A program made the position numbers and the translations under genes. Of a stretch of 64,000 bases of DNA, positions 2,366-4,745 are shown piece after piece. The DNA comes from Candidatus Hydrogenedentota bacterium (lineage in GTDB: Bacteria; Hydrogenedentota; Hydrogenedentia; Hydrogenedentales; SLHB01), in NCBI GenBank assembly GCA_029552745.1, contig JAKPDK010000184.1, positions 248,001-312,000 on the forward strand, given 5' to 3'. The notes below the pieces were generated by a model, which was not told where the DNA came from, made no database searches, and saw only the letters and a list, made by a program, of their open reading frames with translations. Each line of letters starts with the position of its first letter. Within the stretch, counting starts at the first letter, position 1.

Positions 2366-2689
2366 ATGAGTGAGAATCCGTGCTACGGGGTGAACCCAAT
2401 ACGTCCCGAACGGGTACCATTCGATCCCGAAGTACCGCGCCCGGCGCGTACGGGGGCGACTTCTGCCCCGGGTAGTTTCAAAGAGGTGCTCTCTGAAACA
2501 ATCAAGACCGTGAATCGCCTTCAAGTTGAAGCCGACACGACCATTCAGAAAGTTGTTGCTGGCGAAATCAAGGATGTAACGGATGCGATGGTAGCGGTCG
2601 AAAAGGCGGACATTGCGTTTCAAACCATGTCCGTCTTGACGAACAAAATGATCGCCGCCTATCAGGAAATTATGCGCATGCAGGTGTAA
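2366..2689 (+). CDS. fliE: Flagellar hook-basal body protein FliE
   Basis: 107 aa. The conserved FliE core covers roughly residues 35-107: FKEVLSETIKTVN, then DVTDAMVAVEKADIAFQTM and the terminal YQEIMRMQV. FliE links the MS ring to the rod. The ATG follows GAGGTGAG at about 9 nt. It is 28 nt after flgC and completes the classical flgB-flgC-fliE trio. A long non-coding stretch separates it from fliF, which is unusual for this operon. Confidence 0.97.
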   Translation: MSENPCYGVNPIRPERVPFDPEVPRPARTGATSAPGSFKEVLSETIKTVNRLQVEADTTIQKVVAGEIKDVTDAMVAVEKADIAFQTMSVLTNKMIAAYQEIMRMQV

Positions 2690-3177
2690 GCGAAGGTAGG
2701 GCACGCCCGGTGTGAAATGGGACACACCGTGTGGGCTTTCTGAGGTGAGTGTGTCTGTGGATGTTCTCCGGAGGAACCTGCCCAACCTTCAAGGTTGTGC
2801 GGGAAATACGGGATACGGCGGTGTCCACCTCTCCCGTGAAAAAACATGGACACGACGATGGGGAGGTATGGCTCACGGTGCGAAAACCACCTCCACAACG
2901 TTGGCAGGGACGCATGGGCACATTCCTTCCCTAGCCTGCCGACAAGTAAGGAAAACGTCGGTAGGGACTCGAGCGGAGCAGAGAATTGAATCTTTATTTC
3001 ACGTGCGGGCTGCAAAGCTGTGTGCGGGAGGAAGTTTCAGCCGGTCTGGCAACCGGATGCGGGACATGAAAAGAACGGCGCTTGGCATACAAATCAGCAA
3101 GGAACCGGTTTTTTTCTTGGTTACGAGAACCCTGGATTTAAGGAATTTCCCCGGTTCCTAACACGAGGTGATGCGCC
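2690..3177 (+). ncRNA. Candidate structured leader RNA between fliE and fliF (class unknown)
   Basis: This 488-nt, GC-rich gap inside an otherwise tightly packed operon has no convincing ORF but is dense in inverted repeats. Paired arms are 2708-2714/2723-2729 (7 bp), 2783-2787/2793-2797 (5 bp), 2821-2827/2847-2853 (7 bp), 2935-2943/2957-2965 (9 bp with one GU), 3041-3045/3052-3056 (5 bp) and 3100-3108/3151-3159 (9 bp). Arm 2828-2834, in the loop of the third hairpin, can also pair with 2860-2866 as a pseudoknot or alternative fold. The last helix ends 5 nt before the fliF Shine-Dalgarno (3165-3170). I could not match it to the c-di-GMP, cobalamin, SAM, RNase P or tmRNA consensus. Function is inferred only from structure and position. 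Confidence 0.5.
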
Positions 3178-4524
3178 GTGTGGACATTCTTCCGACAACT
3201 TGCGGCAGGTATTGCCCAAACGTGGCAAAACCTATCGTTAAGCGCCCGCGTCAATATCATTTTGACCTTGATTGCTACCTTGGGGTTATTAGGGGCAGCT
3301 GTGTTCATAGGGGGCAGACCCCAATACACCACGCTGTACAGCGGGTTAGAAAAACCCGAGGAAATCAGTCAAATCCAAGCAATCTTAGCAGAAGAAGGCA
3401 TTCCGTATAAGTTCGCCGACGGAGGAACTACAATCAAAGTTCCGGACAAGTATGTCGGGCAGCTGCGGGTGGCTTTGCGCGCGAAAGGTTTGCCTTCTGT
3501 ACACGGACTGGCGCCGGGCTGGGATTTGTTGGACAAGCAGGGCATTTGGACCAGTCCTGAAGCGTACGCTACAAATAAACAACGTGCTATTCAGGGCGAA
3601 TTACAACGCATGCTGAATCAACTGGACTTTGTGGACAAGTCGTTTGTGTATATTCACGAAGCCAAAGAAAGCCTTTTCAAGAAGGACCAAAAGCCATCGG
3701 AAGCTGCCGTGACGCTAGCGGTTAACCGCCCGCCTACAAAAATGGAGATCGAAGCGGTTCTGGGCATCGTCTCCACCTTTGGGGGCGTCAATCTCGACCG
3801 GTCGCACATCACGTTGGCAACCACAGACGGTGTTTTGCTGCACAGTCCAGCCAAGGACGAAATTGCTCGTATTGCCAGTTCAAAACATGAGGTTATCGAG
3901 CAGCTCGAAAAACAAAGAGAACAAAAAATCGTTGATGCCTTCGCGCAACTTGGACGTCGCGTCATCCCCATGGTGAGCGCGAAACTGGATTTCAGCACAA
4001 AAGAAGTGTCCGAAGATTCCGTAAGTGAAGGTGCGGAGTTGAGTGTAAAAGAAACCTCTACGGAAACGACCACTACCGAGTCACTACCAGAGGGCCCGGC
4101 GGGTACGTATTCCAACCTACCCGAAGGTGTACCGGGACCGCGTACCACTCAGACAAGCGAAACCAACAAAGATACCCTCACCAACATGGAGCCTAGTCGA
4201 ACCCGGCGCGTAACACGAACGGACGCGGGAGATGTCTTGCAATATAAGGTCAGTGCGATAATCGATTGGGGCAATCGCCCCAAGTTGGACGAAAGCGGTA
4301 ATCCGACAGGGGAAGAAGAATACGGTCCCCCCAGTGAGGAAGAATTGGAACAATTCCGACGGTTCATCGCCAGTGCCGTAGGGCCTGAGGTCAAAGAAGA
4401 AGATGTCCATGTGTTTGCGCAAGCCTTCCAACTGGATCAGCTGAAAGAAGCAAAAGAAACATTTGCCGTGTTAGAACGCGCAACTTTAATTTCCGCTTTA
4501 GTACAATGGGGGGATATGTGCTAA
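3178..4524 (+). CDS. fliF: Flagellar MS-ring protein FliF, N-terminal portion (frame broken at 4507-4514)
   Basis: 448 codons from GTG 3178, with SD GAGGTG 7 nt upstream. The first membrane helix is at about residues 27-45. The YscJ/FliF ring-building motifs follow (YTTLYSGL, then LAPGWDLLDKQGIW and a KSFVYIHEAKESLF segment), and the FliF C-terminal domain extends to about residue 430. The frame then ends abruptly (LVQWGDMC-stop) just where the second membrane helix should begin. The missing helix and FliG-binding tail continue in another frame from 4506. Joined, the protein would be about 522 aa, a normal FliF length. FliF is the inner-membrane ring on which the flagellum is built. Confidence 0.93.
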   Translation: MWTFFRQLAAGIAQTWQNLSLSARVNIILTLIATLGLLGAAVFIGGRPQYTTLYSGLEKPEEISQIQAILAEEGIPYKFADGGTTIKVPDKYVGQLRVALRAKGLPSVHGLAPGWDLLDKQGIWTSPEAYATNKQRAIQGELQRMLNQLDFVDKSFVYIHEAKESLFKKDQKPSEAAVTLAVNRPPTKMEIEAVLGIVSTFGGVNLDRSHITLATTDGVLLHSPAKDEIARIASSKHEVIEQLEKQREQKIVDAFAQLGRRVIPMVSAKLDFSTKEVSEDSVSEGAELSVKETSTETTTTESLPEGPAGTYSNLPEGVPGPRTTQTSETNKDTLTNMEPSRTRRVTRTDAGDVLQYKVSAIIDWGNRPKLDESGNPTGEEEYGPPSEEELEQFRRFIASAVGPEVKEEDVHVFAQAFQLDQLKEAKETFAVLERATLISALVQWGDMC

Positions 4525-4745
4525 AAGCGGTATTGGTGCTTGTCGGATTTCTGCTGGCACGGCGTGCTATGCTTCGGATTATGGCGGCGACTCCAATTGA
4601 GGAGGAAGAAATGGAAGCGCCTAAGCCGAGTACAGCAGAAATGCGGAAGCGCCAAATCGCTGAGGAAGTGGAGAATCTATCTCAGCAACAACCCGAAGCC
4701 GTGGCATCTCTATTGCGAGCATGGATGACAGAAAGTGAAGAGTAG
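4506..4745 (+). CDS. fliF: FliF C-terminal portion: second TM helix and FliG-binding tail, in shifted frame
   Basis: 79 codons if read from the internal ATG at 4506. The sequence opens with a hydrophobic helix (VLKAVLVLVGFLLARR), then a charged linker, and ends in VASLLRAWMTESEE, which matches the FliF tail that docks on FliG. It is therefore the missing end of the preceding fliF frame and not an independent gene. No Shine-Dalgarno precedes 4506. Its last 11 nt overlap the fliG start, as is usual for an intact fliF-fliG junction. Confidence 0.85.
   Translation: MGGYVLKAVLVLVGFLLARRAMLRIMAATPIEEEEMEAPKPSTAEMRKRQIAEEVENLSQQQPEAVASLLRAWMTESEE
4507..4514 (+). other. Frameshift site in fliF at a run of six G
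   Basis: The sequence TGGGGGGA has G at 4508-4513. Upstream reads TGG GGG GAT. Continuing fliF requires GGG GGA TAT, a -1 shift of the ribosome or one extra G in the DNA. The possible causes are an assembly or sequencing indel in a homopolymer, a slippery-site -1 frameshift, or a phase-variable tract. Confidence 0.85.

Follow-up and report, generated by a model that had tools for sequence, protein, structure and literature searches.

The locus raises the question why fliE and fliF are separated by a long spacer and which function this spacer might have. The window, i.e., the whole stretch of 64,000 nucleotides that was analyzed, contains a fliE–fliF spacer of 488 nt (2690-3177), in which no protein gene was recognized. 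This spacer and the window parts of it that are described below are read on the forward strand. The fliE gene ends at 2689, fliF starts with a GTG codon at 3178, and both flanks, FliE and FliF, were confirmed by Pfam, so that the real gap of 488 nt claimed by an earlier note on this DNA was verified. A DNA similarity search with the whole gap, comprising 60 relatives and plasmids, revealed no match outside its own genome. The spacer is present as a single copy in the genome, and plasmid matches were not found. A mobile-element relic, named in the same note as an outcome that would speak against a regulatory RNA, was rejected, because neither repeated copies in the genome nor a plasmid match nor anything else pointed to a mobile element.

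The gap is crossed by an open frame (2712-3161) with 149 codons. Its G+C contents at the three codon positions were 0.54/0.55/0.54, versus 0.58/0.42/0.53 for fliF, its coding (codon) score was negative, and 19 of 1000 shuffled sequences contained a frame that was as long. The frame had no Pfam domain, and it did not match the profile of the FliF-like proteins of relatives that are described below. The window gap was thus rejected as a protein gene, because codon periodicity was absent and the coding score was unlike that of the neighboring genes. The downstream fliF gene was observed to be split over two frames (4501-4745): an ORF of 448 aa stops at 4524, and the last approximately 80 aa, with the second membrane segment and the presumed FliG-binding end, continue from 4506 in a different frame, the site being a run of six G. 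In several relatives, L058, L059, L062, L063, and L065 among them, both parts are matched in a single frame. The two-frame reading reflects either an assembly frame break or a true frameshift.

The earlier note had listed a series of helices, and all of them were located in the sequence (2701-2736, 2784-2796, 2821-2827/2847-2853, 2935-2943/2957-2965, 3041-3045/3052-3056, and 3100-3108/3151-3159). The folding of the whole spacer was only mildly better than that of dinucleotide shuffles (z -1.96; 4 of 100 shuffles folded equally well), and, thus, most helices are unremarkable when taken singly. Only the 9-bp helix at 2935-2965 was found to be conserved in the relatives, so that most of the list was left without support from conservation. 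The first helix, P0 (2701-2736), is an imperfect hairpin directly after the fliE stop codon, with 79% complementary arms, and inspection by eye suggested that hairpins are frequent at the same site in relatives. The last helix, AGGAACCGG/CCGGTTCCT (3100-3159), has 9 bp and precedes the fliF Shine-Dalgarno sequence (GAGG, 3165-3168). The region of its 3' arm is similar to that of L024 and L042.

The sample comprised 68 genomes of the phylum Hydrogenedentota, including the window genome, and the fliE–fliF spacers were gathered with a FliE profile. In all 43 readable fliE–fliF gaps the length was between 236 and 662 nt, and, thus, the long gap is a phylum-wide property and not peculiar to the window genome. 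The closest relative (L024/L065, PWNM01000352) has a FliF identity of 61%. MAFFT was used for globally aligning the gap nucleotides, which helped little outside the ends and the surroundings of a short motif, M1.

The M1 consensus, GCGGAGNNNANANTTGAAT, was detected with at most three mismatches in 41 of the 43 gaps, which are otherwise scrambled or unalignable. In the window, M1 reads GCGGAGCAGAGAATTGAAT (2973-2991) and is located at the fliE–fliF junction, as in the relatives. It is a near-invariant, mostly unpaired core motif of 19 nt, which had been absent from the list of the earlier note. The M1 pattern without mismatch occurs at one place in the window genome, i.e., 2973-2991. Other matches in the genome have two mismatches, and their number is no higher than that of a control pattern. 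M1 was unpaired above the average base in 37 of the 41 gaps. A role of M1 as a Shine-Dalgarno sequence with a TTG start codon of a leader peptide was rejected, because the triplet is TTG, in a few cases TTT, and never ATG or GTG, and because the downstream frames are unconserved, as judged by eye. M1 was also rejected as a sigma-70 promoter, because a partner hexamer is not at a constant position. Conserved pairing between M1 and the fliF start was looked for, and none was found.

The conserved helix, P1, lies upstream of M1. In the window it is a hairpin with 9 bp (CCTGCCGAC/GTCGGTAGG, 2935-2965), which is followed by a linker of 7 nt (2966-2972). In the relatives a distance of 5 nt to M1 is the commonest, and the window hairpin lies within the range of 2-9 nt upstream of M1 that was used for the assignment of members. 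The P1 sequence varies almost freely, and its position and, by way of compensatory changes, its pairing are conserved across the phylum. The 42 nt upstream of M1 folded better than dinucleotide shuffles (mean z -2.0 for 41 gaps, combined Z about -13), and an offset scan revealed strong folding peaks only directly before and directly after M1.

When 22 copies were aligned without gaps, each of the 10 P1 pairs had changed on both sides, and 81.8% of the P1 cells were paired, versus 49.2% after shuffling and 29-46% in slid registers; for this alignment the hairpins were chosen by folding energy and the loops trimmed to equal length, which biases it towards pairing, a bias from which the test with the fixed window of 42 nt is free. 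In an alignment of 42 matches of a covariance model (see below) the value was 80.4%, versus 48.2% after shuffling, with the same bias, because the matches were placed by a model built from them. Kinship among the copies inflates the covariation counts; nonetheless, the P1 changes are spread over about ten families. Wobble combinations (G·U and U·G) were found 28 times, versus 4 times for A·C and C·A, and this excess shows that the folded strand is the fliF-sense RNA. Covariation in homologous regions, which the earlier note had put forward as a check, was thus present for one helix, P1.

Covariance models were used to search the genomes. The model R1, which comprises P1 and M1, yielded one match per genome in 27 genomes, adjoining fliE. 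The model R2 was rebuilt from these matches and yielded 43 matches in 42 of the 68 genomes. With two exceptions they lie at the fliE–fliF junction, if the match in G002, which directly precedes fliF at the beginning of a contig, is counted as a junction match. The two exceptions were the match in G058, a genome in which fliF was not found, and a second, borderline match in G008. Both are located inside ORFs, which on visual inspection were taken for rimM-like and rplP-like genes. The R2 match in the window (2933-2997) had a score of 32.4 bits, with an E of 3e-4 for the whole genome, and the second-best place of the 64 kb scored 9.6. The window M1 was part of the training set. The window P1 had not been covered by R1 and was unaligned when R2 was built, and, thus, R2 was tested fairly as far as P1 is concerned. 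Taken together, P1 and the near-invariant 19-base M1 are a previously undescribed, real, and probably regulatory RNA that has been kept across about ten families.

The element is not universal. It is missing in two genomes of family f10, although both fliE and fliF are present, and theirs are the only ones of the 43 gaps that lack M1. The gaps of these genomes (L040 and L049) were seen by eye to share a conserved promoter-like sequence, TTGATT-17-TAAAAT, after fliE. Family f6 retains P1-M1 only, and a near-perfect sigma-70 consensus promoter is located downstream of it, inside the fliE–fliF gap, at a distance of 47-67 nt from the M1 start. Two of the three f6 promoters (L036, L047, L038) read TTGACA-17-TATTAT, and one reads TTGACT-17-TATATT. 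The absence in f10 and the reduction in f6 show that some lineages do not require the element, and transcripts that start at the f6 promoter would exclude it.

Further, weaker parts are located downstream of M1, among them another hairpin region behind it (combined Z about -9.8). One block, M2, TGCGGG(A/G), was enriched (15 versus 4.0), and the surrounding hairpin was only slightly above the control. Another block, M3, GGCGCAAGAG, was found exactly in 8 of 38 gaps, versus 0.03 expected, mostly 100-130 nt before fliF. M3 is present in part of the family only, and in the window M2 and M3 are diverged or tentative. A tentative hairpin P3 (3008-3042), with an M2-like loop TGCGGGA at 3023-3029, was assigned weakly, by analogy with L023 and L018. 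A tentative, diverged M3, GGCGCTTGGC (3077-3086), agrees with the consensus at 6 of 10 positions and is located 101 nt upstream of fliF, as in the relatives. Pairing of M2 with M3, i.e., of UGCG with CGCA, is suspected from the sequences. In family f11 (L035, L037, and L050) two sequences were noticed by eye, TTGGGAA in the loop of a hairpin behind M1 and GGTTCC further downstream, which could pair as a pseudoknot. L056 and L037 have retained the M3 block and have clear hairpins.

The gaps of six relatives (L003, L004, L010, L015, L016, and L020) contain an ORF of about 150 codons that resembles the N-terminus of FliF. Five of the six ORFs matched the FliF N-terminus in tblastn searches (E 1e-5 to 3e-7), and the ORFs of all six (L020, L003-L004, L010, L015, and L016) form one profile. 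Five of the intact ORFs belong to one clade, and L020 stands apart. By similarity to FliF, the short protein has one membrane segment and the first ring-building region. This truncated fliF duplicate in sister genera is a link that the earlier note had missed. P1 and M1 are located inside the FliF-like ORF in these six relatives, and M1 encodes A-E-L-T-V-E or a near variant. For the first 105 codons the dN/dS was near 0.3 between close pairs. The dS of the FliF-like ORF was lower than that of fliF from the same genome pair in both comparisons (0.41 versus 2.69, the latter value being saturated, and 0.33 versus 0.76). A low dS across the overlap is expected of an overlapping RNA, and these sequence comparisons suggest that the ORF may be under simultaneous selection as protein and as RNA. 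Broken forms of the ORF were found in L007, L013, and L022-L024, and in L045 (family f4) a sequence like the ORF start was seen by eye. In the window, GTGGATGTTCTCCGGA (2757-2772), aligned with GTGAGTATTCTCCGTC of the relatives, is a weak candidate for a remnant of the gene start. The simplest history would be an old partial duplication of fliF, with the gene lost in most lines and P1-M1 kept. It is conceivable, if tentative, that this duplication took place early in the phylum, and that a coding part became the RNA P1-M1, which has mostly outlived the protein and overlaps a selected protein in a few genomes.

It was established that P1-M1 is conserved, that it covaries and folds as RNA of the fliF-sense strand, that it is strictly linked to fliF, and that it is present as a single copy. 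The reading that we favor, with slightly better than even confidence, is that it is a phylum-specific, structured, cis-acting RNA at the fliE/fliF junction, which controls the fliF part of the operon. The spacer RNA would be transcribed within a flgB-flgC-fliE-fliF message. Its core would consist of P1, a linker of about 5 nt, and the mostly unpaired M1, and in many species an extra structured domain would follow between M1 and the fliF ribosome-binding site. The core may be bound by a trans-acting factor, which would be a protein or, less likely, a small ligand. Binding would set the output of the downstream fliF, i.e., of the MS-ring, relative to that of the upstream rod genes, in a direction and at a level that we can only infer, and control might be exerted via altered translation of fliF or via local processing of the mRNA. 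In the region 2600-3260 no terminator-like sites were found in a search for intrinsic terminators, and a search of the window gap for the sigma-70 promoter consensus was likewise negative. A transcription attenuator was rejected for the window, because the leader has no intrinsic terminator, and the absence of both consensus sequences from the window gap makes control at the level of translation or processing likelier than attenuation. The proposal that a cis-regulatory RNA gates MS-ring synthesis was thus borne out as far as a structured, conserved RNA before fliF is concerned, and the gating itself is a conjecture.

The main rival, which we regard as unlikely, is that P1-M1 is a site of mRNA processing or stability, at which a nuclease would cut near M1, P1 would shield the 3' end of the flgBC-fliE message, and fliF would obtain a half-life of its own. 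This explanation agrees with the layout of the element at a cistron boundary, i.e., a hairpin and then a short conserved stretch that is mostly unpaired, and with the fact that M1 is more unpaired than average in 37 of 41 gaps. The f6 promoter points in the same direction, because an element directly before it could serve only the upstream or the read-through message. However, the blocks M2 and M3 would be unneeded, and the sequence of M1 is far more conserved than is usual for known mRNA processing sites. It is improbable that the gap is a decaying relic of the short fliF-like gene without function in this lineage. The six relatives with the ORF, five of them matching the FliF N-terminus, and the broken forms elsewhere agree with a relic, and the window may retain a trace of the start. 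However, M1 and the P1 pairing persist in families that show no vestige of the ORF, and they are out of frame in some, and a neutral remnant would not hold a motif of 19 nt amid change all around. For M1 and P1 this explanation is thus largely refuted.

An independent, trans-acting small RNA embedded in the gap, the alternative offered by the earlier note, is very improbable. The compact structure and the single copy would be in accordance with it, but the window gap contains neither a promoter nor a terminator consensus, and the element is locked to the junction, i.e., it has a fixed order beside fliF in every genome with a junction match. Least probable is that M1 acts as DNA, either as a promoter element or as an activator site. 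Some variants of M1 read GTTATAATTGAAT, some copies hold TATAAT, TTGAAT resembles a -35 element, and promoter-like sequences are present in the gaps of f6 and f10. Yet the best sigma-70 matches are not at a constant place relative to M1, and a DNA site would leave unexplained that P1 is free to vary and nevertheless paired, with a strong excess of G·U over A·C.

The cis-acting RNA would represent a new family of RNAs, located where the rod genes meet the MS-ring genes, and the literature searched contained no RNA regulator of this phylum. With 19 nt and one hairpin it would offer a concrete handle on the balancing of early flagellar parts. In addition, the genera in which it overlaps a truncated copy of fliF would allow a view of a coding sequence that turns into a regulatory RNA.

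The element was compared with known RNAs and proteins. A search with Rfam 15 yielded no family above the gathering threshold, neither in the window nor in 12 relatives, and with a relaxed threshold (E up to 5) only a chance score of a miRNA was obtained in the gap. This supports a structured RNA of no known class before fliF, in agreement with the first impression that no riboswitch or other RNA class was recognizable. The c-di-GMP riboswitches and the protein-binding flagellar leaders are likewise structured RNAs before flagellar genes with presumed control in cis, but the window and the 12 relatives lack an Rfam match to them. The conserved bases of M1 and M3 also appear to differ from the consensus of the c-di-GMP classes. 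The gap protein of the six relatives resembles the FliF N-terminus (YscJ_FliF, PF01514) up to DGGQTVMVPA..AELTVEL, whereas in the window and in most families no readable protein is present and the nucleotide motif has been kept. In the main texts of the open-access literature, no fliE–fliF RNA and no work on a Hydrogenedentota element or riboswitch was found, and in this respect P1-M1 is unlike the candidate structured RNAs from comparative genomics (PMC2864571, PMC8040213). These are characterized by conserved bases and a covarying helix in one gene context, and P1-M1 was discovered in the same way.
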